A DNA stretch of 28,263 nt, from the IMG/VR virus record IMGVR_UViG_3300025671_008986, positions 1 through 28,263 of that record; one strand, given 5' to 3'. The stretch's first letter is position 1. Every line of letters begins with the position of its first letter. The position numbers were made by a program, and so were the translations under genes. The notes beneath the pieces were generated by a model that saw nothing but the letters and a program-made list of their open reading frames with translations, ran no database searches and was not told the DNA's origin. Shown here piece by piece: positions 5,898-19,944 of this stretch. Source of the DNA: a virus.

Positions 5898-6397
5898 TGA
5901 TTGAAGTACAAATTACAGAAGGGATGAAAAAGCGAGCATGGCGAAAAGCCCGAGAAATGGGGGTTATTAACAATTCCATTATGAAGGGTGATGGAAATAT
6001 TGCAGGATTTTTAGGAGAAGAGGTTGCAAATTATGTTTTGTGTGGTATAATCAATAACACATACGATTATGATATTGTTACTGGAAACCTTTGTGGAAAT
6101 AGCCAACAGGTTACTTGGGACGTAAAAACCAAACGTTGCACTAGCCCGCCAAAGCCTTACTATGATTGTTCAGTTGCAAACTACAATACCAAGCAAAAAT
6201 GCGACAACTATGTCTTTGTCAGGATTGAGAATAAGAATGGGCGATGGGGCCGAGCTTGGGTGCTTGGCTGGTTGCCTCGCGATGAATATTACAAAAAGGC
6301 AAGAAAGCTAACCAAAGGCGAAATCGACCCTTCTAACGGTTTTGTTGTTAGGGCTGACTGTCACAATGTTGCGATTAAAGATTTGAACAAACCTTGA
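5897..6397 (+). CDS. Conserved phage protein with PD-(D/E)XK nuclease-like core
   Basis: This 166-aa protein resembles a type I recall as common in large phages but without an established function. It starts with a basic helix (MKKRAWRKAREMG), then GNIAGFLGEEVANYVL (E41, E42), then YDYDI (D57, D59), then the strand TWDVKTKR (D75, K77). An alpha-helix carrying Glu followed by D...DxK is the PD-(D/E)XK nuclease layout. The second half has AWVLGWLPRDEY and GEIDPSNGFVVRADCHN, probably strands of the same fold. It follows the RecB-type nuclease with a one-base overlap and precedes the polymerase. A role in DNA processing or host DNA breakdown is plausible; the real substrate is unknown. Confidence 0.65.
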   Translation: MIEVQITEGMKKRAWRKAREMGVINNSIMKGDGNIAGFLGEEVANYVLCGIINNTYDYDIVTGNLCGNSQQVTWDVKTKRCTSPPKPYYDCSVANYNTKQKCDNYVFVRIENKNGRWGRAWVLGWLPRDEYYKKARKLTKGEIDPSNGFVVRADCHNVAIKDLNKP

Positions 6398-6405
6398 GAA
6401 ATAAA

Positions 6406-7962
6406 ATGTGGAATCCTATAAATTGTAAAACGCACTTCAGTCTACAGACTGCATTTTGCAAAACTGATAAACTAGCACAAAGATGCAAGGAATATGGCTA
6501 TACTGCCTGTGGTATTGCTGACTTTGAAAGTGTTTCTGGTGCTGTAGAATTTAGTGCAGACTGTAAAAAGCATGGTATCAAGCCAATCATTGGTTGTGAG
6601 TTTGATGGTTATATTTTATATGCTAAGAATAAAAATGGATGGTTTGATTTAGTTCGATATGTTTCCAATAAAAATCTAGACGTTCTGAAACAAGTTGCTA
6701 AAGCTGGAAATGTTATCTGTGTTACAAAAGAAAAGAATGGATTTGCCAAGCTATTTAAGCATAATCATTATCAGTTAGACTATGAAAATCAAGCGATCTA
6801 CTATGTTGATCAAAGTGACGCTGATTGTCATAGGGTCATGCTGTGTAGCAAGCTAAAAACTACGCTTAAAAAAATCAAGAACATAGAACACGACTACGAA
6901 CAGTTTTTTAATGGTGATGACAAGTGGTTTTTGCCTAAGCTAACTGGCAAAACTGCTGGATTTGACATCGCTGATAAATGTGAAGATTACGATCTTGCCG
7001 GACCTCCGCTCCTGCCCACGTTTGAATGTCCAGAAGGATACAATGAGGATGAATATCTAACTCAACTATGTAGAGATGGCTGGGCTAGATTGCTGATTCC
7101 TTCAGGCAAGGTTAAAGACAAAGAATACAAAGAAATCTATGCAGATAGAGTAAAACATGAGCTTAAAGTTATTTTTAAAGCTCAACTGTCTGGATATTTT
7201 TTGATTGTTCAGGACATTATTAGATGGGTGCGCGAGCAAGGCTGGCTTGCGGGTCCGGGTCGAGGCTCAGCCGCAGGATGTTTAGTGTCGTATCTACTAG
7301 GCATCACAGAAGTAGATCCTATAGAATACGACCTTATTTTCGAGCGATTCTACAACGAAGGTAGAAACACTGAGGGCAACGTAGCGATCCCCGATATTGA
7401 CATGGATGTTCCAGCAGAACGTAGGGACGAAGTTATTGATTATATCAAACAAAAATATGGGGCAAATAAAGTGGCTCAGATGATTACGTTTGGGCGATTG
7501 CAAGGACGCGCGGCACTAAAAGAAGTATTAAGAATCAATGAAAGCGTGTCATTTGCAGAAATGAATGCGATAACAGATTGTATGATTGACGAATCTAAAA
7601 TTTCTGACCAATTAGAGATGATGGAAGACAAGTCTGTAATTCGTTGGAACTTGGAAAACAAGGCAGACGATCTTAAAAATTATTGTTACTATAATGATAA
7701 AGGGGAATTAGAAGGTCCGCTTGCAAATATTTTTGAACAAGCAATTAATATTGAAGGAACTAACAAGTCGCAAGGAAAGCATCCTGCCGGTGTTATTATT
7801 TCAAGTGTAAATTTGGCCGATGTTTGTCCTATGACTGAAGATAAAGATGGCAATCCTGTAGTGGCGTTTGAAATGAACGCACTAGAGTTTCAAGGACATA
7901 TCAAATTTGATGTTCTCGGGATTGCATTATTAAGTAAAGTAATGGAGGTGTGTAATGCTTAA
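6406..7962 (+). CDS. dnaE: DNA polymerase III alpha subunit, N-terminal half (PHP + palm), split gene
   Basis: Start ATG 6406 gives 518 aa; TTG 6394 is unlikely. Residues about 1-200 are a shortened PHP domain: the usual HxH start is replaced by CKTHFSL and the TDHG-type motif by ADFESV, so the metal site looks lost. The polymerase part follows, with AGPGRGSAAGCLVSYLLGI (about 281-299), PDIDMD (D330, D332, the DnaE catalytic pair), KYGANKVAQMITFG, KHPAGVIIS and HIKFDVLG (D502, the third catalytic Asp). The protein stops 16 residues later, before the fingers. The remainder is encoded at 9518-11062. Together the two parts give 1032 aa against about 1160 in E. coli DnaE. The last codons contain a strong RBS for the next gene. 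The two proteins must associate to make an active polymerase. Confidence 0.9.
   Translation: MWNPINCKTHFSLQTAFCKTDKLAQRCKEYGYTACGIADFESVSGAVEFSADCKKHGIKPIIGCEFDGYILYAKNKNGWFDLVRYVSNKNLDVLKQVAKAGNVICVTKEKNGFAKLFKHNHYQLDYENQAIYYVDQSDADCHRVMLCSKLKTTLKKIKNIEHDYEQFFNGDDKWFLPKLTGKTAGFDIADKCEDYDLAGPPLLPTFECPEGYNEDEYLTQLCRDGWARLLIPSGKVKDKEYKEIYADRVKHELKVIFKAQLSGYFLIVQDIIRWVREQGWLAGPGRGSAAGCLVSYLLGITEVDPIEYDLIFERFYNEGRNTEGNVAIPDIDMDVPAERRDEVIDYIKQKYGANKVAQMITFGRLQGRAALKEVLRINESVSFAEMNAITDCMIDESKISDQLEMMEDKSVIRWNLENKADDLKNYCYYNDKGELEGPLANIFEQAINIEGTNKSQGKHPAGVIISSVNLADVCPMTEDKDGNPVVAFEMNALEFQGHIKFDVLGIALLSKVMEVCNA
7944..7957 (+). promoter_or_regulatory. Strong ribosome binding site inside the polymerase N-half
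   Basis: GGAGG at 7944-7948 lies six bases before ATG 7955, inside the codons for the last residues of the polymerase N-half (MEVCNA). It is one of the best Shine-Dalgarno matches in the window and fixes the start of the 72-aa gene that follows. Confidence 0.6.
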
Positions 7963-8173
7963 CACAACGGCGGACTACAAGTCTGTGATTTTTTCTGGAT
8001 GTTCGATTGAGTCCAGAGGGGTTTCGGTTTGCAATTTAGAAGATTTTATGATGGGGCAGTTTGTCCCACGGGCTAAATATCAGGTTTGGTCTGATCGTCA
8101 CAAGTTTTACAGACTTTATCACAACATTGATGATGCTGTAGAGAAGTTTATTGAATTAAGGAGAAAGCGATGA
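7955..8173 (+). CDS. 72-aa orphan protein, first gene of the insert in the split polymerase
   Basis: I do not recognise this protein. It has two cysteines near the N-terminus (SGCSIESRGVSVC), a central MMGQFVPRAKYQVW stretch and a helical, charged end (IDDAVEKFIELRRKR). No membrane segment or signal peptide is visible. No intein block (an N-terminal Cys with a following TEI or TVE motif, or a C-terminal HN pair) is present. It starts within the last codons of the polymerase N-half behind a strong GGAGG site and overlaps the exonuclease start by four bases, so it is probably well translated and coupled to both. A small partner that helps join the polymerase halves or the exonuclease is possible but unsupported by any motif. 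Confidence 0.6.
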   Translation: MLNTTADYKSVIFSGCSIESRGVSVCNLEDFMMGQFVPRAKYQVWSDRHKFYRLYHNIDDAVEKFIELRRKR

Positions 8174-8856
8174 ATTATCGAGATATTATTGTATTTGACT
8201 TTGAGACAACGGGGCGCAATCCTTACAAGTGTCAGCCCACGCAAATTGCTGCTGTGGCTATTCATGCTAGAAAATTAACCCTGCAACCGGGAGGTGTGTT
8301 TGAAAGTAAGATTCGTTGCATTACTGACGAAGAAAAGTGTATCGCCGCAGGATTCGATCCGGTTGAAGATGAGGCGTTAGAAGTAACAAGAAAGACTAGG
8401 GCAGAAATTGCTACTGGCCCAATGCCTAAAACGGTTTGGAAAAAGTTTGGGCAGTTTTGTGATAAGTTTAATTTCAAAGGAACTAACTGGACAGCCCCAG
8501 TTGCTGCTGGCTGGAATATCAATAGTTATGATATGCCAATTGTAAACCGAATGTGTAAAGCTTTTGGCCCTTGGGACGACAAGCGAGAAGAACAAAAACT
8601 ATTCAATCCTATTTTTACAATGGACGTAATGCAGCACGTCTACTGCTGGTTCGAGAACAATGCAGAAGTTAAGGGTTATAACATGGATTACATGAGAGAT
8701 TATTTCGGTATGTCTAAAGACAATTCCCACGACGCACTCCAAGATGTTAAAGATACAGCAAATATTCTTATCAAGTTTTTGAAGATGCAGAGAAATTTAT
8801 CGAATAAAATTAAGTTTGAAAAAGCTTTTGCAAACGGACAATTATATGTCGAATAA
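8170..8856 (+). CDS. DEDDh 3'-5' exonuclease (DnaQ-like), probable proofreading subunit
   Basis: The product is 228 aa, the usual size for a DnaQ-type exonuclease. Exo I is IVFDFETTG (D10, E12), Exo II is GWNINSYDMPIV (D121), and Exo III is NSHDALQDVKDTA (H187, D192), giving the complete DEDDh set. These enzymes remove 3' nucleotides using two metal ions and proofread for Pol III. The gene lies between the two halves of the polymerase alpha gene, whose own PHP domain looks inactive, so it very probably proofreads for that enzyme. The substrate region between Exo I and II has an extended insert (residues about 40-110). A good AAGGAG site precedes ATG 8170. I see no clear clamp-binding motif in the last 20 residues. 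Confidence 0.9.
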   Translation: MNYRDIIVFDFETTGRNPYKCQPTQIAAVAIHARKLTLQPGGVFESKIRCITDEEKCIAAGFDPVEDEALEVTRKTRAEIATGPMPKTVWKKFGQFCDKFNFKGTNWTAPVAAGWNINSYDMPIVNRMCKAFGPWDDKREEQKLFNPIFTMDVMQHVYCWFENNAEVKGYNMDYMRDYFGMSKDNSHDALQDVKDTANILIKFLKMQRNLSNKIKFEKAFANGQLYVE

Positions 8857-8867
8857 AGAGAATATAA

Positions 8868-9521
8868 ATGCAAATCAGATTGGAAAATATTGGAAAGTAT
8901 AAAGTTCCTCCAGAAACGCGCGGCGGCAAGTGCTTAGAAATAGGCGCAAATGTAGGTTCTTTTACTGAAAAATACAAAGACCATTTTGGAGTCATTCATT
9001 ATTACGAGCCAGTAAGGAAGTGTTTTGAAATAATCCAAGGCAAAATCAAAAGCGACAACATTGTTGGCTTTAACCTAGCCTGCGCTAAAAGATCTGGAAA
9101 TGAAGTTGAGATTATCATGCATCAAAATAACGATAGCGGATCTTGTGCATTAAAAAATGAAATAACATCAGTTCATGAAGAATGGGATAAAACTAATGTT
9201 ATTCAAAAGGTGCAAACTATATCATTAGAAGATTGCATTAGCAAGATTGGAGGTAGTGTAGACTATTGTAAATCAGATTGCGAAACCAGTGAATACAATA
9301 TATTTTATAACCAAGACTTAACTCCTATTAAATATCTCGCAATTGAAATACATCACCAAATAGGCATACAAAAATGGCGAAATCTTTTGGCTTATATACA
9401 GAAAACACATGGTATTATAAAAGGTAATGTGTCTTATTCCGAACGGCAAAATAAAGAATTCTTATTTAAAAGAAAGCAGCATATTATTGTTAAAAACCCT
9501 AAAACTGGAGTGTGGGCATGA
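8868..9521 (+). CDS. FkbM-family SAM-dependent methyltransferase
   Basis: The product is 217 aa. The SAM-binding motif I is CLEIGANVGSFTE (E24 to G30), followed by the acidic loop VIHYYEPV and later SLEDCISK and DYCKSDCETSEYNIF, which stands where FkbM enzymes have a VDYIKIDVEG-like block. The usual D-x-E-G is changed to DCETSE, so catalysis or substrate may differ from the family norm. FkbM proteins O-methylate sugars and small molecules. Two other members sit in the glycan module (22886-23527 and 24969-25598), but this one is placed alone between the exonuclease and the polymerase C-half. Start ATG 8868 follows AAAGAGA. Its stop overlaps the C-half start as ATGA, so it feeds ribosomes to that gene. 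Confidence 0.75.
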   Translation: MQIRLENIGKYKVPPETRGGKCLEIGANVGSFTEKYKDHFGVIHYYEPVRKCFEIIQGKIKSDNIVGFNLACAKRSGNEVEIIMHQNNDSGSCALKNEITSVHEEWDKTNVIQKVQTISLEDCISKIGGSVDYCKSDCETSEYNIFYNQDLTPIKYLAIEIHHQIGIQKWRNLLAYIQKTHGIIKGNVSYSERQNKEFLFKRKQHIIVKNPKTGVWA

Positions 9522-11062
9522 ATTTTAATATCAACAATTTTGACGACCCAGAAGTATGGGATTTGATTTGCGCTGGCGATACCAAGGGCGTGTTTCAGCT
9601 TGAATCTAATCTAGGTAAAAAATGGGCCAAAGAAAGTCGGCCTAGAAATATCAAAGAATTAGCAGCACTAATTAGCCTGATTCGTCCGGGAACGCTATTG
9701 GCTAAACATAAAAGCGGCAAGAATATGACCGAGGTGTATTGCCTGAGAAAAAATGGCTCTCCAGACTTCCCAGTAGAATATGATCATGAATCTTTAGAGC
9801 CAATCTTAAAAGAAACTTATGGTGTACTTGTATACCAAGAACAGTCCATGCAGATTGCTCAAAAGTTAGCAGGGTTTGATCTTAAAGAAGCCGACGCTCT
9901 TCGAAAGGCTATTGGTAAAAAGAAAGCCGACCTCATGGAGAAAGTTAAAAAATCTTTCCTAAAAGGGGCCGCTGATAAAGGAATCGTTACTAACAAAGTC
10001 GCAGAAGAAATTTTTGCAAATATTGAGAAGTCCAACCGTTACGCCTTTAATAAATCCCACGCTGTGGCCTATGCCATCAATGCATACTGGGCCGCTTACT
10101 GCAAGCACCATAGAAGAAAAAAGTTTTATAAAGTTTGGCTAGACGGATCGAAAGGCAAGCCAAAAGAAGATGTCGAAAAAAAGCAATTAATCATGGATGC
10201 TAGAAGAGCAGAAATTGATGTATATCCACCTAGACTTGGACATTTATACAGTAATTTTACTATAGACGAAAGTCGCGATGTTATTTATTATGGATTAAAC
10301 TATATCAAGCTTGTGGGCAAAAAGGAATGCGAAAAACTTGAAAGTCTAGAAGATGTTTCTGGCTATACATGGATGGACTGCCTATGCAACATCGTTCACA
10401 AACTTAGGATCAATAAAAGATCAGCAATCGCACTAATTTCTGTTGGAGCATTTAATGGTAAAAATAATCGAGAATGTCGCCAGCAAATGTTGTACGAGTT
10501 TGATAGCTGGAAACAACTTACTGCCAGAGAGCAAGAAGCTATTGTAGAGGCTCACAATGAGAACGGACTCAAAAACTTGTCCGAAGCTATTGAAGTCATG
10601 ACAAAAAAAATCAATGTGAAAGCTAAAAGATATGAAACTGTAATAGATATCAAAAAATCTTTAGATAATCCTTTTTACAATTTGGATGACGAATCTTCGG
10701 TTATAGCAATGGCAGAAGAAAAATACTTATCGTGCGGGCTGACTTGCAGTAAAGTTGATAGTTCTTCGTTAAATATGGCAGTTAATATGTGCAAAGACAT
10801 AGTAAACGAGACGATAATAGGTAAAGCAAGTATTGGTGTTGAAATTGAAAGAATTAAAGTCATCAAGACCAAAAAAGGCGATGAGATGGCGTTTTTGACT
10901 GTTGAAGACAGTAGTGGAAGTTTAGATTCTGCTGTTGTATTTCCAGAAACTTGGGAAAAGCATAAAAATCTACTAATTGAAACTAACACTGTTTTGTTGA
11001 CTGGAGAAGTCCAGCGCAGAGATCGCGGAAGTTTAATCGTCAATGAAGTAAAGCAAATATAG
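9518..11062 (+). CDS. dnaE: DNA polymerase III alpha subunit, C-terminal half (fingers, HhH, OB), split gene
   Basis: ATG 9518 (514 aa) is preferred over GTG 9512 because GGAG lies seven bases upstream and it forms an ATGA overlap. The protein resumes DnaE exactly where the N-half stops: DDPEVWDLICAGDTKGVFQLES matches the start of the fingers. Next come IRPGTLL, YGVLVYQEQSMQIAQKLAGF, ADALRKAIGKKK and AFNKSHAVAYAINAYW. The region after about 240 includes the helix-hairpin-helix part (YYGLNYIKLVGKKE), and the last 80 residues an OB fold (AFLTVEDSSGSLDSAVVFP, LLTGEVQRRD). No catalytic Asp of the palm is in this half, so it cannot polymerise alone. I see no clear QxxLF clamp-binding motif. The stop TAG overlaps the first hairpin of the downstream RNA element. 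Confidence 0.9.
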   Translation: MNFNINNFDDPEVWDLICAGDTKGVFQLESNLGKKWAKESRPRNIKELAALISLIRPGTLLAKHKSGKNMTEVYCLRKNGSPDFPVEYDHESLEPILKETYGVLVYQEQSMQIAQKLAGFDLKEADALRKAIGKKKADLMEKVKKSFLKGAADKGIVTNKVAEEIFANIEKSNRYAFNKSHAVAYAINAYWAAYCKHHRRKKFYKVWLDGSKGKPKEDVEKKQLIMDARRAEIDVYPPRLGHLYSNFTIDESRDVIYYGLNYIKLVGKKECEKLESLEDVSGYTWMDCLCNIVHKLRINKRSAIALISVGAFNGKNNRECRQQMLYEFDSWKQLTAREQEAIVEAHNENGLKNLSEAIEVMTKKINVKAKRYETVIDIKKSLDNPFYNLDDESSVIAMAEEKYLSCGLTCSKVDSSSLNMAVNMCKDIVNETIIGKASIGVEIERIKVIKTKKGDEMAFLTVEDSSGSLDSAVVFPETWEKHKNLLIETNTVLLTGEVQRRDRGSLIVNEVKQI

Positions 11063-11131
11063 ATTTGGTGAGGGAGGTTAGGCCGCGCATCCCGCTAGTT
11101 GGGAGGTTAGCCCGCACATCCCGCCAAATCT
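11061..11131 (+). ncRNA. Structured RNA element, unit A of a tandem pair
   Basis: A 71-nt unit is closed by a perfect 8-bp stem: AGATTTGG at 11061-11068 pairs with CCAAATCT at 11124-11131. Inside are two copies of a 22-nt motif, at 11072-11093 and 11101-11122, joined by a 7-nt linker. In each, GGGA can pair with TCCC and, after a G-A mismatch, one more G-C pair follows, leaving a 10-nt loop. A three-way junction results. An alternative rod fold pairs the outer GGGA with the far TCCC. The unit starts within the stop codon of the polymerase C-half. I do not recognise a known family. Confidence 0.7.
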
Positions 11132-11202
11132 CTAAAAAACAAAACTGGTGAGGGAGGTTAGGCGTTGCATCCCACTTGTTGGGAGGTTAATCACCGCATC
11201 CC
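11072..11202 (+). repeat. Four copies of a 22-nt hairpin motif
   Basis: The copies lie at 11072-11093, 11101-11122, 11152-11173 and 11181-11202. All four read GGGAGGTTA, then seven variable bases, then CATCCC, with no mismatch in the 15 fixed positions. The variable parts are GGCCGCG, GCCCGCA, GGCGTTG and ATCACCG. The spacing pattern (7-nt linker within a unit, 80-nt period between units) is identical in both units, which points to duplication of a whole unit followed by divergence of loops and stems. Confidence 0.9.
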
Positions 11203-11211
11203 GCCAGTTTT
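11141..11211 (+). ncRNA. Structured RNA element, unit B of a tandem pair (U-tract at its 3' end)
   Basis: Second 71-nt unit, 9 nt after the first. AAAACTGG at 11141-11148 pairs with CCAGTTTT at 11204-11211. Compared with unit A, three of the eight base pairs are changed on both strands (G-C to A-U, U-A to A-U, U-A to C-G), so pairing is kept while sequence is not. The stem runs into six T at 11208-11213, so this unit could end transcription or attenuate it. The ssb start codon is only 18 nt after the unit, with its RBS (AAAAGGA) just outside the stem, so control of ssb translation is equally possible. Confidence 0.7.
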
Positions 11212-11228
11212 TTATAAAAGGAATTTGA

Positions 11229-11540
11229 ATGAACAAATGTATATTTTTGGGCAAATTAACCCATCAGCCAGCTGTAGAAATTGATCAAGATACTGGCACT
11301 CCAATGTTAGTTTTTGAATTGGAGATTGAAGAATTTAGACGTGACAAAGGCGGAAACAAGAAAAGAACGTTGACGCTACTTCAGTTTGAGGCTTGGGACA
11401 CTGCCGCTTTGACGATTGAGAAATATGCTTGCGAAGGCGATTTAATGTCTGTGGAATCCAGCGCTAGAAGTTCCTATATTGATGGACAAGAATACGATTT
11501 CACTTACTTCAGGGTTACTAGTTTTAAGATTTTATCATGA
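11229..11540 (+). CDS. ssb: Single-stranded DNA-binding protein, SSB-like OB fold
   Basis: The product is 103 aa. It opens like bacterial SSB: MNKCIFLGKLTHQPAVEI (SSB has MNKVILIGRLTRDPEL or similar), followed by a strand PMLVFELEIEEF, a basic loop RDKGGNKKRT, LLQFEAWDTAA (the SSB W in the third strand), the KYACEGDLMSVESSAR turn corresponding to SSB's KGDLVEVEGRL region, and FRVTSFKIL as the last strand. The usual acidic C-terminal tip used for partner recruitment is missing, so it is a bare OB domain. The ATG is preceded by AAAAGGA. Directly upstream lies the tandem RNA element, which may control it. Overlap of the stop with the first glycosyltransferase gene (ATGA) joins the replication and glycan modules. 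Confidence 0.8.
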   Translation: MNKCIFLGKLTHQPAVEIDQDTGTPMLVFELEIEEFRRDKGGNKKRTLTLLQFEAWDTAALTIEKYACEGDLMSVESSARSSYIDGQEYDFTYFRVTSFKILS

Positions 11541-13183
11541 GAAAAAAACGAATACTATGGATAAATGAATGCTCTTGGAAAAACACTGGATACGCAGTGT
11601 ACGGAAGAGAGGTTTTGTCCAGACTTAACAAAGTTCCTGAATTTGAAGTCGCGGAATTGGCCTGTTATGCGTCCGCAAAAGATGTTCAGGAAAATCCACA
11701 AGACTGGATAGTTTTTCCTAACAAGCCAGACGAAGAATCTCCAGATTATGAAGGGTATTTATCAAATCCTAGCATGATTTTTGGAGAGTATAGCTTTAAC
11801 AGTGTGTGTCTTGATTTTATGCCAGACATCGTGATGGATATTAGAGACTGGTGGATGTTTGAATACCAGCAAAGATCTGTTTTTAGAGATTACTTTCATT
11901 GGGCCATTATGCCAACCGTAGACGCAATGCCACAAAACCCTCAGTGGATCAATACATTTGCTAGTGCGGATTCTGTTATGGCATATTCTGAATTTGGACG
12001 CGACACAATGTTGAGTCAGTGTGATTCAATAAAATTTGCAGGCATACCATCACCTGCGGCCAGCGATGCGTTTTATCAAGTTTCAGACAAGGCAAAACAT
12101 CGAGAGCTGATGGGTATGGACCCCTCGTCTTTCATAGTAGGCACTGTTATGAGAAATCAGCGCAGAAAACTATATCCAGATCTTTTCAAAGCGTTTAGAA
12201 TGTTTTTAGACAAAACTAAAATGTCAGACGCCTTCCTTTACTGCCACACAAAATATCCAGATATTGGTTGGGAGATTCCTTATTTACTTGATAAATTTAA
12301 ATTAAACAATAGGGTTTTATTTACTTATAAATGTCGCAACGAAAACTGCCAACATATATCCGTTGGATTTTACCAAGACGCGGCGTCGTATTGCAGTCAT
12401 TGCAAGAAATTTGCCAAGGAGCTTGTTGGCATCAGGAATCCAATCGACGAGCAAGAGCTAAATAAAATATACAATCTGTTCGATGTTTATGTTCAATATG
12501 CAAATAGCGAAGGTTTTGGCATGCCTCAACTTGAGGCGGCTTATGCTGGAATTCCACTAATAGCAACTAATTATTCGGCTATGGAATCTGTAATTAAAAA
12601 CATTGGAGCAGTAGGAATTGAGCCCTTGGCGCTTTCTATGGAGTGTGAGACAGGCTGTTACAGGGCTGTGCCAGACAATCAAACATTTGCAGAGATACTA
12701 GAAATATATGCTCAGCATAGACCGGCGCTAACCATGTATGGCAGCGGACAAAGAAGTCTGGCTCGGGAAAAATATAATTGGGATAAAACTGCCGATGTAT
12801 GGATTAATCATTTTAAATCCTTACCGCTTTTAGATATACAAGACACTTGGCTTTCAGAGCCCAAAATTAGAATACCCGCAGAAGGTATACCTGAATATCT
12901 TACAGATATAGTCCAACAGGTAAACTTCTTATTTACTAATGTTTTGTATAAACCTGAATGGATAGGTGGTAATTTTTGGTCGAAAGTTGTAAAAGATTGT
13001 ACACTTAAGTATAGGGCTAAAGGTATGGACGATTATTATTTTAATGAATCTCATATTCCAGATCAGCATAAGTTTGAATCTTTTACAATTGGTCACGCTG
13101 GCAAGGAGTTGTCTGCACTCAGAAATCAATGGAATACTTGGGAACATATCAGGACACAACGTCTGATAGGCGGATTAAAATGA
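11537..13183 (+). CDS. GT4-like glycosyltransferase with inserted zinc ribbon and C-terminal extension
   Basis: The product is 548 aa. The N-terminal Rossmann half starts with a strand and NECSWKNTGYAVYGREV, the glycine-rich acceptor loop of GT-B enzymes. The C-terminal half has TVMRNQRRKLYPDLFKAF and the EX7E signature EGFGMPQLE (E325, E333) that binds the nucleotide sugar. Between them a zinc ribbon is inserted: CRNENC (C266, C271) and CSHC (C286, C289). About 120 residues after the GT fold (from about 425) form an extra domain with FWSKVVKDCTLKYRAKGMDD and a helical end; I do not recognise it. The gene starts the glycan module. The sugar donor and acceptor cannot be told from sequence. Confidence 0.8.
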   Translation: MRKKRILWINECSWKNTGYAVYGREVLSRLNKVPEFEVAELACYASAKDVQENPQDWIVFPNKPDEESPDYEGYLSNPSMIFGEYSFNSVCLDFMPDIVMDIRDWWMFEYQQRSVFRDYFHWAIMPTVDAMPQNPQWINTFASADSVMAYSEFGRDTMLSQCDSIKFAGIPSPAASDAFYQVSDKAKHRELMGMDPSSFIVGTVMRNQRRKLYPDLFKAFRMFLDKTKMSDAFLYCHTKYPDIGWEIPYLLDKFKLNNRVLFTYKCRNENCQHISVGFYQDAASYCSHCKKFAKELVGIRNPIDEQELNKIYNLFDVYVQYANSEGFGMPQLEAAYAGIPLIATNYSAMESVIKNIGAVGIEPLALSMECETGCYRAVPDNQTFAEILEIYAQHRPALTMYGSGQRSLAREKYNWDKTADVWINHFKSLPLLDIQDTWLSEPKIRIPAEGIPEYLTDIVQQVNFLFTNVLYKPEWIGGNFWSKVVKDCTLKYRAKGMDDYYFNESHIPDQHKFESFTIGHAGKELSALRNQWNTWEHIRTQRLIGGLK

Positions 13184-14250
13184 AAATTCTATACATAGGT
13201 CACTACAGAGATGGCACAGGTTGGGGCAACGCCGCCCTTAACAATATACTGGCTATGGATGCTGCTGGAATAAACGTCGTGCCCAGAGCGATTACTTATG
13301 AAGCCCAAGATCGAGAATACCCAGACAGGATCAAGCAATTAGAACAGCAATCAAATCTAGATTGTGACGTTGTTGTACAGCATACGATTCCTACAAATTT
13401 TGTTTATGATTCAAACTATAAAAACATTGGCTGCTTTTGTATTGAATCTACAAACATGAAGCCAACTGGCTGGGTAAAGCATCTAAATTTAATGGATGAA
13501 GTTTGGGTAGCATGTCGCGCAAATAAAATTATAGCTGAAGAATCGGGAGTTACTACACCTATAAAGATTGTTCCATATAGCTTAGACGTTGACAAGTATA
13601 CACAGACTGATGGAGATAAAATTCAGGAGTTAAACAACAACTTTACATTTGGTTTTGTGGGTGAGTTTATTGAAAGAAAAAATTTAAAAGCGTTGATCAG
13701 AGCTTTTCATATGGAGTTTGATCCCAAAGAACCAGTTAATTTATTTATCAAGACTTCTAAGACATCTTTAGAGGGAGCGCAAAAATACATACAGCATGTA
13801 AAAAATGGACTTAAAATCAGAAGTACTTATAAAGAAGAAGTTATTGTTTCAGGTATGATGGATAGTAAAGACTACATATCTGTTTTAAATCAGATTGATT
13901 GTTTCGTAATGCCTAGTCGTGGAGAGGCGTTCTGCATTCCGGGACTAGAATGTATGGCGCTAGGCAAGCCAGCAATTTATACAAAGGGCACTGGCATGGA
14001 TTATTTAGTGGGACATCCTGTGGAAGCTTATAAAACGCCGTGTTTTGGCGCTGTTGACACGATGTCATATATAGATACAGCTGAATCAAACTGGCTAGAA
14101 ATCGACGTAATTAAACTTGCAAAAACTATGCGTCAGGTATATAATGAATATGACAGAGAAAAAATTAGTAAAAAATGCAAGGCGGCAGCGACAAAGTTAA
14201 GCCATGAAAAAGTAGGAAGTATTATAAAGGATTATCTAAATGACGGCTAA
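13180..14250 (+). CDS. GT4-like glycosyltransferase
   Basis: ATG 13180 is preferred (356 aa) because it overlaps the previous stop as ATGA and has a TAGGCGGA site upstream; ATG 13129 would add 17 residues of poor quality. The fold is GT-B. The N-terminus is MKILYIGHYRDGTGWGNAAL, and in the C-terminal half GFVGEFIERKNLKALIRAF is followed by DCFVMPSRGEAFCIPGLE, with the EX7E pair at E249 and E257. This pattern is typical of GT family 4 retaining transferases. It lies between two other GT-B genes, all of which are translationally coupled, so they probably add successive sugars to one chain. Confidence 0.85.
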   Translation: MKILYIGHYRDGTGWGNAALNNILAMDAAGINVVPRAITYEAQDREYPDRIKQLEQQSNLDCDVVVQHTIPTNFVYDSNYKNIGCFCIESTNMKPTGWVKHLNLMDEVWVACRANKIIAEESGVTTPIKIVPYSLDVDKYTQTDGDKIQELNNNFTFGFVGEFIERKNLKALIRAFHMEFDPKEPVNLFIKTSKTSLEGAQKYIQHVKNGLKIRSTYKEEVIVSGMMDSKDYISVLNQIDCFVMPSRGEAFCIPGLECMALGKPAIYTKGTGMDYLVGHPVEAYKTPCFGAVDTMSYIDTAESNWLEIDVIKLAKTMRQVYNEYDREKISKKCKAAATKLSHEKVGSIIKDYLNDG

Positions 14251-15259
14251 AGCTAATCAAAGAAGTTTGCGATCAATTATGAAAAAAATCAAAAGAGGCG
14301 ATAAATTAAACATTCTTACATTCGCCACTCACGAAAGATATGAAGAGAATCTATGCAGAACAGGGCATAATTTCTATTCGCTAAAATATGGCAAAGAGTG
14401 GGACACAACTTACGCTCCAGTACCAGACAATTACCACATTATAGATTCACTGCCTCAACATATTGATATTGATCTAGTTCTGAGCCACACAAGCTGTAAT
14501 AGACTGCAAGTAGCTCATGATATTTTAACAGATACCAATGGAATGTCTGGACAATCTCCCGTTCCTATTCTGCGCCACTGCCACGTATTGCCCGATATTA
14601 GGTTTGATGTAGAAACGCAAATCCAAAGCTACAACAGTCTGCCAATTAAGCACAACTCATTTATTTCTGACTATAACAAAACCCAATGGAAAAGCAGTGG
14701 CTATGTTGTAGAACATGGTGTCGATACTAATTTTTGGTGTCCATCAAATAGAAAGGTTCCCGAGATAGAGGGATGTTTATCTGTCGTCAACGAATTTCCT
14801 ACAAGAGATTGGTGTTGCGGATTTCAGCTATGGAAGGACGTAGTAAAAGATATTTCACGCTTTATAGTGGGTAAATGTACGACTCATCCCGGTTTTTCTG
14901 AGCCAGCCCGCACCAGAGAAGAGCTGAGAGATTATTATCAAAGGGCAAGATTATTCCTAAATACATCACTTCATTCGCCAGTACCTACCGTAATGTTGGA
15001 AGCTATGGCCTGTGGATGCCCAGTGGTTTCTACTAAAAACTGCATGATACCAGAAATTATCGAACATGGAGTGAATGGTTTTATGTCTAACGATGCTGGT
15101 GAACTAAAGTCATACTGTCAAAAATTACTAGACGATCCAGAGCTGGCAGCAAAGATTGGAGCCGCTGGACGCAAAACAATACAAGAAAAATATAATCTTG
15201 ATAGATTTGTTAAAAATTGGAACGATCTATTTTATCAAGTGATAGGAGATTACAAATGA
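14240..15259 (+). CDS. GT4-like glycosyltransferase with altered EX7E
   Basis: The product is 339 aa; ATG 14240 follows AAGGATTA, and ATG 14279 is an alternative. The second half resembles GT4 enzymes: RLFLNTSLHSPVPTVMLEAMACGCPVVST, followed by IPEIIEHGVNGFM and a C-terminal helix EKYNLDRFVKNWNDLF. In the EX7E motif the second Glu is kept (E254), but the first position is Ser (S246), which occurs in some family members and may affect donor binding. The N-terminal half is less typical, with FATHERYEENLCRTGHNFY and PILRHCHVLPDIRFD, so the acceptor side may be unusual. It overlaps the previous gene by eleven bases and the next one by four. Confidence 0.8.
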   Translation: MTAKANQRSLRSIMKKIKRGDKLNILTFATHERYEENLCRTGHNFYSLKYGKEWDTTYAPVPDNYHIIDSLPQHIDIDLVLSHTSCNRLQVAHDILTDTNGMSGQSPVPILRHCHVLPDIRFDVETQIQSYNSLPIKHNSFISDYNKTQWKSSGYVVEHGVDTNFWCPSNRKVPEIEGCLSVVNEFPTRDWCCGFQLWKDVVKDISRFIVGKCTTHPGFSEPARTREELRDYYQRARLFLNTSLHSPVPTVMLEAMACGCPVVSTKNCMIPEIIEHGVNGFMSNDAGELKSYCQKLLDDPELAAKIGAAGRKTIQEKYNLDRFVKNWNDLFYQVIGDYK

Positions 15260-15672
15260 AATTTTACTTAGGCGTGGAATCAAAAGATGGCTACAAAAAT
15301 CTTGGCTGCAATTCTTCAGAAATCAACAAAGCGATTTTAGACGCAGAAGCTATGGAAATATATTCAGATAAATTTCTTTCTAGATTCAATTTCTTTGAAG
15401 TCCCTAAAGTGCTAGAACTTTTGATTAGAAAAATAAGGCGTGGAGGAACTCTGACTATATGTGATACTGATTTTGATCTTATAGCAAGAACGATATTTAG
15501 ACAAGAAGCGTCGTTGGAAGCTATTAATCGGCACATTTTTTCAGACGGGATTATAGCTAAAAGCATGCTAAACTTTGAATTCATAAAAGATTTGCTCCCT
15601 GATAATTTTCAAATAATAAATACACATTTTCAACAAGACACATTTTTGCTGTGTGCAAGGAGAATTAAATAA
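15256..15672 (+). CDS. Methyltransferase-like protein lacking SAM motif I
   Basis: ATG 15256 is chosen (138 aa) because it overlaps the previous stop as ATGA and follows TAGGAGA. The part FEVPKVLELLIRKIRRGGTLTICDTDFDLIART resembles the second half of a class I methyltransferase sheet (a helix, then an RRGGTLTICD strand as in predicted SAM-dependent methyltransferases), and the end FQIINTHFQQDTFLLCARR forms the last strand pair. The glycine-rich SAM motif I is not present; the N-terminus MKFYLGVESKDGYKNLGC is too short for it. It may be a degenerate or partner-type methyltransferase. Activity is doubtful. Confidence is high that it is a gene, low for its function. Confidence 0.6.
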   Translation: MKFYLGVESKDGYKNLGCNSSEINKAILDAEAMEIYSDKFLSRFNFFEVPKVLELLIRKIRRGGTLTICDTDFDLIARTIFRQEASLEAINRHIFSDGIIAKSMLNFEFIKDLLPDNFQIINTHFQQDTFLLCARRIK

Positions 15673-16481
15673 TGGACAATAGATTAGTAACAAAATGTAA
15701 TGGATGTATCTTTTCGATTACTGATGAAAACAAAGCTCAAACAGGATGCGAACTAAACAGACCTGAAAAACTAGGAATTTTAGGAAAAGATGACGACGAA
15801 TATTTTATTTGCGATAGATTCTGCACTGCCTATCGCCCGCAACAATGGCTAGATGATTTAAGTTTTGAAGACCAGCTAAATCCAGAAAATTCATTAATGG
15901 AAGAGCTGTACCCTAATATGGGATTTTTTATTAAGCTTAACTCAGATAGCGACAACGCAATTGCAGATCTAGAAAAAACGTTGAGCAGCATTGTCGCTGC
16001 ATGTCGCAAAAAAGACGGCAAGCCATTGTTTTTAGTAGTTATAAATAGTAAAGTAGAATACAACAATGAAATTTGGAATTTGTTTGTCTCTTATTTTGGA
16101 GAAAAAAGCGATACTAATTACCACATTGTACAAATGGAATCAACAGCTCAAACAGCGGCACACATAATTGATGAGGCTTTTATTCATGCGCAAAACGGAT
16201 GGGCCTATATTACAACTTCTGGTGAAGAAATCCCTCATGACGTACTAGACAATATTCACAACATGGTTTCTGTAGATCTTAAACAGTTTGTCGCCATAGA
16301 GCCTTACAACGGATTTGATGGCTTTGTATTTCCTACATTTCTTTTTAAGTTTTTAAACGGCAACAAGACCAAAATATTTCAAGACGAAATATCTGATGGC
16401 AGGCAGTTTCTAGATAAGCTAAAGAGTCACGAAGGCGAAGTAAAAACTATTTATACTTGGGAGGAATTTAATGCTTCCTAA
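15672..16481 (+). CDS. Cysteine-cluster protein with degenerate GT-A-like domain
   Basis: The product is 269 aa. Residues 1-55 hold five cysteines, C9, C12, C26, C47 and C51 (CNGC, then TGCELN, then FICDRFC), a spacing that could bind zinc or an iron-sulfur cluster. The rest (about 80-265) has alternating strands and helices, with LFLVVINSKVEYNNEIW and NGWAYITTSGEEIPHDVLDNI, where a GT2-type enzyme would have its DxD region; the DxD itself is absent. FVFPTFLFKFLNGN then follows. It may therefore be a non-catalytic relative of a glycosyltransferase. The gene overlaps the true GT2 gene downstream by eleven bases, so the two proteins may act together. I do not know a characterised relative. Confidence 0.6.
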   Translation: MDNRLVTKCNGCIFSITDENKAQTGCELNRPEKLGILGKDDDEYFICDRFCTAYRPQQWLDDLSFEDQLNPENSLMEELYPNMGFFIKLNSDSDNAIADLEKTLSSIVAACRKKDGKPLFLVVINSKVEYNNEIWNLFVSYFGEKSDTNYHIVQMESTAQTAAHIIDEAFIHAQNGWAYITTSGEEIPHDVLDNIHNMVSVDLKQFVAIEPYNGFDGFVFPTFLFKFLNGNKTKIFQDEISDGRQFLDKLKSHEGEVKTIYTWEEFNAS

Positions 16482-17214
16482 AGTGGCTATTATTTGTGCG
16501 AATTATAATTATGGTAATTATATCGTTCCCGCCATGAAAAGTATCATGGACCAAACTTACAAAGGTCCAATTCGGCTGTTCGTTGTGGATGATGGCTCGT
16601 CTGATGATTCTTGGGAAAAGATTAAAGGTTTCAAAATAACTTACGGTGTGCAAAACTTGCATGATGTGGAGAAAATCAACGTAAAAAAAATCAAAAACTC
16701 CGGTGCTAGTGTCGCTCGCAATACAGCTATCGAGATGTGCTTGGAATGGGCCGACATTATTGGCGTGCTAGATGCTGATGATGCTTACTACCCAGAAAAG
16801 GTTGAAAAGCTAGTAGCAAAACTTGTCGAACACGAAGAAGTAGGAGTGGCATACGCTGACTATGAAAATGTCAATCCTGATTTCAGCAAGCGAGAATTTA
16901 AACCTGCTTACAGTAAGGAAAGATTGTTAAGACAATGCATGGTTCATAGCAACGCACTAATTAAAAAAGAGTACCTAGAAATGGTAAGACTTCCTAATGG
17001 TGAGTTCTACGACAGCAAGCTGCATGGGCCTGCTAGTCAAGGCTTTATCGGATGCACGGAAGACTACGATTTATGGTTAAGGCTTTCGAGAGTGTGTGTC
17101 ATGTCTCACATCCCTGAATCCTTAGCTGTGGCAAATATACACGGTAACAACCAGTCACTAAAAATGACTAAAGAAATATTCGAACAAAACGCACAGACTA
17201 TGAGAAACAGATGA
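16471..17214 (+). CDS. GT2 family glycosyltransferase
   Basis: The product is 247 aa with a full GT2 (GT-A) core. The N-terminal strand is VAIICANYNYGNYIVPAM, followed by LFVVDDGSSDDSW (D40, D41, nucleotide binding), GASVARNTAIE, then GVLDADDAYYPEKVE (D101 and D103, the metal-binding DxD) and, further on, CTEDYDLWLRLS (E197, D198, the catalytic base region). These enzymes transfer a sugar from a UDP- or GDP-donor with inversion. It starts inside the previous gene behind GGGAGGAA, a strong RBS. No membrane segment is visible, so it is probably soluble in the host cytoplasm. The acceptor is unknown. Confidence 0.9.
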   Translation: MLPKVAIICANYNYGNYIVPAMKSIMDQTYKGPIRLFVVDDGSSDDSWEKIKGFKITYGVQNLHDVEKINVKKIKNSGASVARNTAIEMCLEWADIIGVLDADDAYYPEKVEKLVAKLVEHEEVGVAYADYENVNPDFSKREFKPAYSKERLLRQCMVHSNALIKKEYLEMVRLPNGEFYDSKLHGPASQGFIGCTEDYDLWLRLSRVCVMSHIPESLAVANIHGNNQSLKMTKEIFEQNAQTMRNR

Positions 17215-17912
17215 AAAGACACACAGTAAATATTAAAAAGGTCAAAGTAAACAAAGAAGAGAGCATCGCCGTAGCTATTTTGGCTGCGGGATCTGGAAAA
17301 AAAATCAAATCGTATGAGCCTCGTAGTTTGATTAAAATAAGCAACGATTTTTTATTGCAGCATCAAATAAAAGCATTGAATAATTATTTTGACAATCCTG
17401 AGATTATAACCGTTGTTGGCTGCCATGCCAATAGGATTATAAAAAGATTCAAGGGCAAAACTAGATTTGTAGAGAATCAGATGTTTGACCAGACTAATTC
17501 ATCTGAAAGTTTGAGGCTTGCATTTAATAACTCATCGTCTAAACACCTTATGTTCATACATGGCGATGTATTATTCAATACAGACACTATTAGCCTTGAT
17601 TACTCCCGATCATTTGTAATTAAGGATATAAATTCTCAGCTAAAAGACACAGAGGTAGGTCTGACGGAAATAGACAACGAGCTTTCTATTATGTCTTATG
17701 GACTCAAGGATAAATGGGCGCAAATAGCTTACTTTACTGGAAAAGAGTACGAAATGCTGAAATGTATATTTAACAAGTTTGAAACAAAAGATAAGAAAAA
17801 ACTATCATTTGAAATCATAAATGAGATTTTAGCTATGGGCGGTTCTTTCGCGTGTTTAGCTCATAAAAAAATGAACATATTAGAGATAGACAGGATAAAG
17901 GATATTAAATGA
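17211..17912 (+). CDS. Nucleotidyltransferase (sugar-1-phosphate or phosphocholine type)
   Basis: The product is 233 aa. Residues about 19-40 are IAVAILAAGSGKKIKSYEPR, the glycine-rich loop of NTP transferases, normally LAAGxGxR, here with Lys in place of Arg at residue 31. LMFIHGDVLFN supplies the Asp of the metal site, and FVENQMFDQTNSSESL matches the base-binding region of the choline cytidylyltransferase (LicC) and sugar nucleotidyltransferase family. Such enzymes activate a sugar phosphate or phosphocholine as an NDP derivative. The C-terminal part is short and has no trimerisation helix. It would supply an activated donor for the surrounding transferases. Which sugar is not clear. The N-terminal 15 residues are basic and may be a tail. 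Confidence 0.65.
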   Translation: MKRHTVNIKKVKVNKEESIAVAILAAGSGKKIKSYEPRSLIKISNDFLLQHQIKALNNYFDNPEIITVVGCHANRIIKRFKGKTRFVENQMFDQTNSSESLRLAFNNSSSKHLMFIHGDVLFNTDTISLDYSRSFVIKDINSQLKDTEVGLTEIDNELSIMSYGLKDKWAQIAYFTGKEYEMLKCIFNKFETKDKKKLSFEIINEILAMGGSFACLAHKKMNILEIDRIKDIK

Positions 17913-18979
17913 AAATATTAATTTGCAATGATGGTCGCCATGCTCATTACTACCAAAGGATGGCATGGGCCAATGCGTTTAAAGCATGTGGGGCGCAGGT
18001 CGCCTTATGGGAAAAAGACGCAGTGCCAGCTTTCGACGTTTTCGACGATTTTGAGCCAGATATTTTTATGGGGCAATCTTACAACTTGGACGAAGCAACG
18101 ATCAAATGTATCATGGAAAGGCCGCACCTAAAGGTTGGACTGCGAGCTGGAGACTGGGGCGATCATGCAGCAATTGTAGATAAAGAAAAATACAATATTC
18201 TTTTTTGCTCGCCTAAAGAGCGAGAAATACTGCAAAGATTGAAAGACGAGACGGGCCAACCTGAATTCGTGCATATTCACTACACCCCAGAGGCGGTCGA
18301 GTGGACGCATAATTACTTTGAAACCATCGGCATTCGCCCAATTTCTTTAATGATGTGTGCAGATGTTACAACGTATCGCGATGCAAAATTTGATCCAGCG
18401 CTAGAGTGTGATATTGGATTTGTAGGTGGGTACTGGCCGTACAAGGGGCAGGTAATCAATAAATATCTATTTCCGCTATTAGGTCCGACATCCCAAACTA
18501 TGGGCGATTACAAAGTTAAAATTTTTGGCAATCAACCTTGGCCCGTAAATCAATATTGCGGATTTATTCAAGATAACGACGTAAAGAATTTGTTTCGCTC
18601 TGCCGCAATCTGTCCAAATTTAAGCGAGCCACATGCGCAGGAATTTGGATTCGATGTAAATGAAAGAATTTTTAAGATTTTGTATGCGGGCGGGTTCTGT
18701 ATCAGCGATAATGTAGAAGGGTACAAAAGTTTGTTTGGAGACAGTGTTCCACTAGCAAACGATCCCGAACATTTTAAATCATTGATTGATCAATATTTGA
18801 ATGATCCAGAAGGCAGAAAAAAACTAGCCGAAGAAGGTCTCAAGATTGTCGAACGTAATCACACATCAGTACATAGAGCAGCGCAAATATTGGCTGAGTT
18901 TGGATATGAAGAAGATAGTAAAAGTATCATACAAAGCTATTTCGGAAGTTACGCTTTTTATAAAGGAGAGATTTTGTGA
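17909..18979 (+). CDS. Glycosyltransferase, CgeB-like GT-B
   Basis: The product is 356 aa. The N-terminal half has MKILICNDGRHAHYYQRMAW, EPDIFMGQSYNLDE and KVGLRAGDWGDH. The C-terminal half has CDIGFVGGYWPYKGQVIN, KIFGNQPWP, then FDVNERIFKILYAGGFCISD (E252 near its start), which is the CgeB-like signature of a GT-B enzyme with a conserved N-E-R-x-F followed by a small-residue run. A typical GT-B helix (YLNDPEGRKKLAEEGLKIV) follows. It probably moves a sugar from an NDP donor onto the glycan made by this cluster. The gene overlaps its neighbours on both sides by four bases. Confidence 0.8.
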   Translation: MKILICNDGRHAHYYQRMAWANAFKACGAQVALWEKDAVPAFDVFDDFEPDIFMGQSYNLDEATIKCIMERPHLKVGLRAGDWGDHAAIVDKEKYNILFCSPKEREILQRLKDETGQPEFVHIHYTPEAVEWTHNYFETIGIRPISLMMCADVTTYRDAKFDPALECDIGFVGGYWPYKGQVINKYLFPLLGPTSQTMGDYKVKIFGNQPWPVNQYCGFIQDNDVKNLFRSAAICPNLSEPHAQEFGFDVNERIFKILYAGGFCISDNVEGYKSLFGDSVPLANDPEHFKSLIDQYLNDPEGRKKLAEEGLKIVERNHTSVHRAAQILAEFGYEEDSKSIIQSYFGSYAFYKGEIL

Positions 18980-19944
18980 GAATTTTGGTGACTGGCTCAA
19001 GTGGATTTTTAGGCACTGCCGTAATGAAGCGCCTAAATTCCGCGAGCCATTTTGACACAGTAGGGATCAGAGGGCGATCCGATTGGGATCTCACAAAACA
19101 GAAGCATGTTGATTATGTATTGCAAACTTATGAGCCAGATGTGATCGTTCATTTGGCTGCTGCTTGTGGTGGCATTGGCATTAATAGAGAGCAGCCCGGA
19201 AAATTTATGTATGACAACCTTGCAATGGGTATGAATCTGATCGAATCGTGCAGAAAGTATGGAAAGCTGCATAAGTTTGTGATGGTGGGAACTGTGTGTG
19301 CTTACCCCAAACACACGCCGGTGCCATTCAAAGAGACAGATATTTGGAATGGCTATCCGGAGGAAACTAACGCTCCCTACGGCATCGCCAAGAAAACATT
19401 GATGGAGCTACTTATTTCTTACAATAAACAATATGGAATGCAGTCAACCAATCTAATTCCTGTCAATATGTACGGCCCACACGATAACTTCAATCCCAAA
19501 AGCAGTCATGTCATCCCCGCTCTGATCTTAAAAATAGACAGAGCTATCACGGTCGGACATGGCAAGATCGAGCTATGGGGAACCGGAGAAGCCAGCCGAG
19601 AATTCTTATATGTTGACGACTGCGCAGAATTCATCGCGCTTGCTTGTTCCACAGACACTCGCGCATATCCGTTCCCGATTAATATTGGGACTGGCGTGGA
19701 AATTAAAATTAAAGATTTGGTTGCCATGATAGCCAAAATTATGGGCTATAAGGGTGACATTGTGTATAATTCTGAATATCCAGACGGTCAGCCTCGCAGA
19801 TGCTTGGACACCAGCTTGTCTAAGAATGTATTTGGAATCGAAGCGCCAACAGGTTTATACGAAGGATTGCAAAAAACAATCAGTTGGTACTATACCAATA
19901 AAGACAAGGAGAGATTTAGTGGTTACTTCGATCATATTCAGTAA
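18976..19944 (+). CDS. fcl: GDP-L-fucose synthase (GDP-4-keto-6-deoxymannose epimerase/reductase)
   Basis: The product is 322 aa and belongs to the extended SDR family. The NAD(P)-binding loop is TGSSGFLG (residues 6-13). HLAAACGGIGINREQPG, VCAYPKHTPVPFKE and ETNAPYGIAKK are hallmarks of GDP-fucose synthase. Y135 and K139 form the catalytic YxxxK; C108 and H178 (SSHVIPA) match the epimerase Cys and His. The usual catalytic Ser appears as Thr (T106), a conservative change. The enzyme makes GDP-L-fucose from GDP-4-keto-6-deoxymannose. The dehydratase that makes that substrate (Gmd) is not in the window. Start GTG 18976 is supported by AAGGAG at 18963-18968 and a GTGA overlap. It fits the fucosyltransferase-like gene at 24283. 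Confidence 0.88.
   Translation: MRILVTGSSGFLGTAVMKRLNSASHFDTVGIRGRSDWDLTKQKHVDYVLQTYEPDVIVHLAAACGGIGINREQPGKFMYDNLAMGMNLIESCRKYGKLHKFVMVGTVCAYPKHTPVPFKETDIWNGYPEETNAPYGIAKKTLMELLISYNKQYGMQSTNLIPVNMYGPHDNFNPKSSHVIPALILKIDRAITVGHGKIELWGTGEASREFLYVDDCAEFIALACSTDTRAYPFPINIGTGVEIKIKDLVAMIAKIMGYKGDIVYNSEYPDGQPRRCLDTSLSKNVFGIEAPTGLYEGLQKTISWYYTNKDKERFSGYFDHIQ
19906..19921 (+). promoter_or_regulatory. RBS and GTG start for the glycosyltransferase at 19919
   Basis: AAGGAG at 19906-19911 lies seven bases before GTG 19919 inside the end of fcl. The frame stays open upstream to 19754, but this site, and the fact that the recognisable fold begins right here, fix the start at 19919. Confidence 0.65.

Follow-up and report, generated by a model that had tools for sequence, protein, structure and literature searches.

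A repeated long-hairpin element at gene borders of one phage lineage, probably acting as RNA

The window, an IMG/VR virus record of 28,263 bases analysed here as a whole, carries two tandem units of a structured element between its genes for the C-terminal half of DNA polymerase III alpha and the single-strand binding protein SSB. On comparison of related copies, we assign the element to a new RNA family within a general kind already known, the repeated start-associated phage element, and action as RNA is supported. By the same comparison, the sense-strand RNA is kept as a long hairpin of ~70 nt, in most copies just upstream of a free ribosome-binding site. Tentatively, and with slightly less than even confidence, we read it as a multi-copy, lineage-specific, cis-acting hairpin for mRNA processing or protection that would be read by a trans factor.

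The gap between the polymerase gene and ssb spans 166 nt (11063-11228), and the stop codon of the polymerase gene overlaps the base of unit 1. By mechanical gene calls this is the sole gap longer than 53 nt among the 36 genes of the window, all on one strand, and its counterpart in the relative L141 is the sole gap of at least 30 nt in that genome; tight gene packing is common to the element-bearing genomes. A sequence-only reading had described two 71-nt units separated by 9 nt, and these are present (Table 1). Just as had been described, three pairs differ between the 8-bp closing stems, AGATTTGG/CCAAATCT in one unit and AAAACTGG/CCAGTTTT in the other, and every difference is compensated. 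The 15 fixed positions reported for the four GGGAGGTTAN6RCATCCC motifs also stand: allowing up to three mismatches to GGGAGGTTAN6GCATCCC, there are four matches against 0.06 expected in shuffles, and none of 100 shuffles contained four. The window alone cannot decide between folds, because GGGA and TCCC pair either way in its copies. Folding of the single region was only moderately better than shuffles (z -2.0), and the case therefore rests on comparison.

Table 1. Coordinates of the tandem units and adjoining genes in the window
Feature	Position	Strand	Basis
DNA polymerase III alpha, C-terminal half	9512..11062	+	Pfam DNA_pol3_finger 1e-44, HHH_6, OB fold
Unit 1, predicted as one long imperfect hairpin	11061..11131	+	closing-stem covariation over 8 copies
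Unit 1 closing stem	11061-11068 with 11124-11131, plus U11069.G11123; GA bulge 11070-11071	+	
Unit 1 core	11072..11122	+	covariation over 13 copies; model match 61.9 bits (training member)
Unit 1 outer stem	11072-11078/11116-11122	+	
Unit 1 8x8 loop	11079-11086/11108-11115	+	
Unit 1 inner stem	11087-11093/11101-11107	+	
Unit 1 apical part, pair 11094-11100, pentaloop CTAGT	11094-11100	+	
Spacer between units, 9 nt	11132..11140	+	
Unit 2; closing stem 11141-11148 with 11204-11211, plus U11149.G11203; GA bulge 11150-11151	11141..11211	+	
Unit 2 core	11152..11202	+	covariation over 13 copies; model match 62.9 bits (training member)
Unit 2 outer stem	11152-11158/11196-11202	+	
Unit 2 8x8 loop	11159-11166/11188-11195	+	
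Unit 2 inner stem	11167-11173/11181-11187	+	
Unit 2 apical part, pentaloop CTTGT	11174-11180	+	
AAAAGGAA, likely ribosome-binding site of ssb, outside the hairpin	11216..11223	+	read from sequence
ssb, single-strand binding protein, downstream gene	11229..11540	+	Pfam SSB 1.1e-8

Beyond the window's pair, 11 further copies were found, and all of them belong to this phage group. When viral contigs were first scanned, the motif turned up in contigs overlapping the window's genome or a near-identical genome (L001/L002/L034, L009/L013/L019 and L014/L027). Contig L002 shares a 7.2-kb overlap with the window at 99.8%, and L001 and L009 link up with it; these contigs therefore represent one phage population with many copies and not independent phages. 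The polymerase-ssb site was then located in relatives via the polymerase. A clearly diverged unit pair lies there in L141 (97% polymerase identity) and L143 (75%), whereas L142 (85%) and L144 (74%) have no unit, so that L143 and L144 represent a filled and an empty site. The insert may be flanked by a 4-bp ATAA duplication (L143:9540-9690 versus L144:9540-9562), but in so A+T-rich a region this may be due to chance.

A structure scan of 2.2 Mb (7 bp, YAN6, 7 bp, 7-nt loop, 7 bp, YAN6, 7 bp), in which the apical-loop sequence was not used, returned 11 members scoring at least 28, against 26 for the best chance match. Among them was a new member at L199:5039, and an RCNWGWY apical loop proved common to all 11. 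Two more pattern scans added a member in L224. Members thus score at least 28 and all else at most 26 overall, or at most 11 among pattern matches. What the broad pattern scans picked up was mostly chance similarity within coding DNA, and pattern matches in L201 and L202 were rejected as lacking the structure. A covariance model recovered a 13th copy from outside its training set, L009:4988 (37.3 bits, E 4.3e-6 in 1.15 Mb), which retains every stem pair; a partial 18-bit model match in G089 was taken as chance.

Across these copies, each unit appears to form one long imperfect hairpin, with the 22-nt hairpins supposed earlier as its two arms. In order, it consists of the closing stem, a 2-nt bulge, 7 bp, a symmetric 8x8 internal loop (mostly YAN5Y on either side), 8 bp and a CNWGW pentaloop. 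Twelve cores align without gaps, and in the long hairpin 89.9% of their cells are paired, with changes on both sides in 7 of 14 pairs and a covariation of 0.374 versus 0.193 in shuffles (reached by 0 of 500). For all 13 ungapped copies the figures are 91.3%, 8 of 15 pairs and 0.432 versus 0.213, again with 0 of 500 shuffles reaching the observed value; because the copies are related, these shuffle counts are not probabilities. The layout as two independent 22-nt hairpins did not hold: it pairs 73.2% of cells over the 12 cores, with no covariation above shuffles, and 73.1% over the 13 copies, where covariation is 0.130 against 0.133 in shuffles. RNAalifold unaided picks the long hairpin and adds pair 23-29, which is U-A in L009:4988 and G-U, A-U or G-C in the other copies. 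The closing stem also covaries across eight copies, among which L034 is offset by one base and was scored against covariation. The changes nevertheless affect many different pairs, and some cores are only 41% identical. Further copies with compensatory changes, proposed in the sequence-only reading as a check, thus exist, and covariation of the core fold and closing stem bears out its view that pairing rather than sequence is conserved. Its perfectly kept inner motif is a property of the window's phage; in relatives the loop bases and the pairing persist, but the stem sequence does not.

Wobble pairs and orientation indicate which strand is selected. The 195 pair cells include 22 G.U pairs and no A.C, and the opposite strand would break these wobble pairs, which suggests that only one strand is under selection. 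Copies at all seven sites described below are oriented like the genes. Together, these observations point to an element acting as a transcript: selection sees the transcript, or at least that single strand. Plain folding energies separated the strands poorly. The element may be a free small RNA, but this would sit poorly with copies that are all in sense and in line with the genes, most of them immediately ahead of a ribosome-binding site.

The unpaired positions are conserved in a distinct manner. A9, A38, C24 and G27 are invariant, both internal-loop strands have a pyrimidine as their last base throughout, and one loop strand of L009:4988 starts with AA in place of YA. At the five inner positions of the loop strands, variation is seen even among copies of the window's phage (2.7 distinct bases per column versus 1.2 elsewhere), and these bases show no convincing pairing with each other; pairing between the two strands was rejected as too weak, with 2.15 of 5 positions complementary versus 1.65 for swapped partners. 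CsrA sites were rejected since GGA sits in a stem and is lost in relatives, and an integron attC-like site since GTTAGGC of unit 1 is absent from the other copies.

Because the loop bases are invariant, a phage RNA-binding protein remains a strong rival to a processing or protection factor. The element would then be an operator RNA whose CNWGW loop and two YA loop corners are read in trans by a phage-encoded, perhaps dimeric, regulator of translation or elongation of a gene set. Such a reader would fit loop bases that stay the same in 13 of 13 copies while stems change, an internal loop of always 8+8 nt with no indel in those copies, the two-fold symmetric layout, and the greater likeness of copies within one genome than of copies at the same site in a relative. 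However, no candidate reader protein was found, the downstream genes have no obvious common function, the ribosome-binding site lies outside the hairpin, and one copy follows an operon's final gene and precedes a terminator. We consider an operator RNA possible but rather doubtful.

The element was found at seven non-coding sites, all at gene borders, with several copies per phage and one unit each at most sites. At the polymerase-ssb border (window, L141 and L143) it is tandem each time. The second site, between PhoH and a zinc-ribbon gene (FmdB-like by eye), is filled in L034/L001, L199 and L224, and in these three phages the core lies 21-34 nt behind a TATAAT-like hexamer; a hidden ORF was rejected, as the open frame ahead of the zinc-ribbon gene shows no conservation among L001, L199 and L224. 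The third, filled in L199 only and empty in L001, lies between a MazG-like gene (by eye) and a gene for a 417-aa protein without known PHROG. The copy at L009:4988 overlaps the stop codon of the upstream gene, whereas that at L009:8089 follows a sigma-factor-like gene and precedes an intrinsic-terminator-like hairpin, at an operon 3' end. At L014:1243 the element is placed between a second SSB and a small protein. The seventh site, L014:1743-1764, holds a single-hairpin form, GGGAGGT TAACTTTT GCATCCA closed by AATTGGC/GCCAATT, which begins 11 nt downstream of a promoter that matches the sigma-70 type perfectly (TTGACA-N16-TATAAT) and scores only 10.7 bits with the full model. For 9 of the 13 full copies, 21-41 nt separate the end of the core from a start codon, and the ribosome-binding site is not part of the hairpin; the remaining four are the leading unit of each tandem pair (three pairs) and the copy at the operon end. 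With copies at six other sites, beside unrelated genes, the element is not ssb-specific, and the suggested regulator of ssb is not upheld.

Several features of the neighbouring genes were also recorded. DNA polymerase III alpha of the window is split into two genes (6394-11062), a PHP/NTPase half and a finger/OB half, and genes for a DnaQ-like exonuclease and an FkbM methyltransferase lie between them. L142 and L144 have, instead of the methyltransferase, a small CxxC-rich ORF that by eye may be an HNH endonuclease. Downstream of ssb, positions 11537-19944 contain a run of glycosyltransferases and a nucleotide-sugar epimerase-like gene, a sugar-modification block that is large by phage standards. 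The phage population has two different SSBs (L014:858-1220 and window 11229-11540), and the element comes after one and before the other. Type III toxin-antitoxin RNA repeats were rejected: the neighbours at the polymerase-ssb site are DnaE and SSB, with no ToxN/AbiQ-like toxin gene, and at other sites PhoH, a sigma factor, SSB or unassigned proteins adjoin.

The leader position and a U-run behind unit 2 would be in accordance with an attenuator or riboswitch ahead of the downstream gene. However, the U-run is missing after most other copies, the downstream genes are many and unrelated, no second exclusive fold is conserved (the two-hairpin fold being without covariation on 13 copies), and a scan of 10950-11300 for an intrinsic terminator or attenuator (a GC-rich stem-loop followed by a U-run) found none. 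Thus, the simple terminator or attenuator allowed by the sequence-only reading is not seen, and with no Rfam match either, an attenuator or riboswitch seems very improbable indeed. The put RNA of HK022, ~70 nt long, folds into two stem-loops in a V shape and occurs in two copies per genome downstream of early promoters, putL just behind its promoter (PMC9378689). It gives terminator read-through without protein factors. A similar processive antitermination RNA, acting on RNA polymerase from the nascent transcript, could be proposed here, as the element is likewise a structured phage RNA of ~70 nt that closely follows a promoter at two sites and immediately precedes a terminator at another. Yet it has one hairpin per unit, and one unit at most sites, against the two V-shaped stem-loops of put (PMC9378689); there are many copies per genome and not one per early operon, and no promoter-like site was found in the polymerase-ssb gap. 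We regard such a role as quite unlikely.

Outside this phage group the element was not encountered. In agreement with the earlier statement that no family was recognised, Rfam 15 gave no match at the gathering-score threshold in the window or in nine element-bearing or related loci, and the best sub-threshold matches were at chance level. Comparison of the elements by blastn with 50,697 phage records gave no usable match, a pattern search of 84,980 cellular species genomes, weaker than a model search, gave seven matches, none with the structure, and a model search of ~75 more distant phage-relative records found no element. The PhoH-FmdB site has an unrelated leader in L235/L236 (95% PhoH identity) and no element in L240, L242, L246 and L248. 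Several near relatives thus do without the element at the same site, making it dispensable there. It appears to be lineage-specific, gained and lost, and other hairpins can apparently take its place. The L235/L236 leader (L235:2342-2540, L236:3105-3300) is a different ~150-nt sequence behind the same promoter with inverted repeats of its own, and its two copies differ at few, possibly compensatory, positions. L237:1585-1700 and L238:9673-9790 have a plain perfect 9-bp hairpin, ATGGAGCTA...TAGCTCCAT, directly behind the -10 box. No multi-copy elements were found in the L235/L142 and L238 relatives.

Filled and empty sites in near relatives (L143/L144 and L199/L001), similar copies inside one genome and tandem duplication would also be expected of a palindromic repeat, mobile or selfish, that invades the intergenic gaps of phages and keeps its structure for mobility. 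This is improbable in our view, as the gene-sense orientation at all seven sites and the presence of G.U without A.C pairs speak for selection on a single strand, placement before ribosome-binding sites is regular, and no transposase-like partner was seen.

Processing or end protection is favoured by the position of the element and its tandem use before ssb, by its presence near a 5' end as well as at the 3' end of an operon, and by its replacement with plain hairpins. The operon-end copy before a terminator fits this better than translation control alone, and the unrelated leader or plain 9-bp hairpin at the PhoH-FmdB site fits a generic mRNA-end function. The hairpin would mark a place in the polycistronic phage mRNA and be read as a structure by a trans factor, most likely a nuclease that recognises double strands (RNase III type) or a function that protects mRNA ends, of the host or the phage. 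The downstream cistron would thereby gain a 5' end that is processed or protected, which might, for example, yield abundant SSB from the same operon as scarce polymerase; alternatively, the upstream cistron would gain a protected 3' end. Counting against processing or protection are the four invariant bases and the fixed 8+8 loop, which plain end-protecting or RNase III hairpins do not need, and the several near relatives without the element at the same site.

Known systems offer partial parallels. RNase III sites of phage T7 are irregular ~60-nt hairpins with an internal loop in polycistronic mRNA, several per genome, lying in sense between genes and upstream of the next ribosome-binding site. 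The layout of the element seems to match theirs as an irregular hairpin with an internal loop, in sense between phage genes. The T7 sites have an asymmetric internal loop without fixed loop sequence, whereas the element has a constant-length 8x8 loop, invariant A's and a conserved pentaloop, and is sometimes tandem. Stabilisation by a 5' stem-loop needs mainly base pairing near the 5' end. The 5'-terminal stem-loops of ompA and papA, which stabilise bacterial mRNA (cited in PMC3997798), resemble the element as hairpins at or near a 5' end that leave the ribosome-binding site free, but differ in that the element has invariant loop bases and many copies far from any recognised promoter.

By genome layout, the closest described phenomenon is that of the start-associated sequences (SAS/ESAS) of Cluster K mycobacteriophages, short repeats of not established function that precede start codons in numerous intergenic gaps of a single phage clade (PMC3203893); similar repeats occur in Microbacterium and Cluster O phages (PMC7302621, PMC4351075). 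The element likewise repeats in many gaps upstream of start codons of one clade. SAS is a 13-bp sequence, GGGATAGGAGCCC, in one orientation at the ribosome-binding site and 3-7 bp ahead of the start codon; the ESAS consensus differs between subclusters, departures in its arms do not support RNA pairing, and the authors favoured DNA-binding sites (PMC3203893). In contrast, the element lacks GGGATAGGAGCCC, its cores stop 21-41 nt ahead of the start codon and leave out the ribosome-binding site, and its arm changes are compensated, with pairing that covaries. Sequence relation to known repeats was tested only by blastn of the elements against phage records, and literature searches for a described equivalent returned analogues only (SAS/ESAS-type repeats, put RNA and stabilising stem-loops). 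Since the layout is like that of SAS/ESAS and the T7 sites and the put architecture is different, we place the element as a probable new family of a known kind.

A bolder reading, which we think unlikely, is a post-transcriptional regulon that spans the whole phage. A single phage-encoded factor, probably a dimer and either an RNA-binding protein or a specialised nuclease, would read the two-fold symmetric hairpin with its hypervariable loop cores at no fewer than seven places in the transcriptome, a new RNA-protein recognition diversifying together with its reader between close relatives. Because the invariant positions are defined and near relatives provide natural empty sites, the function is directly testable. 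Repeated intergenic elements have long been noted in phages, and whether they act as DNA or RNA was unclear; for this element, compensatory changes, wobble pairs and orientation together show that a folded transcript is what is selected.
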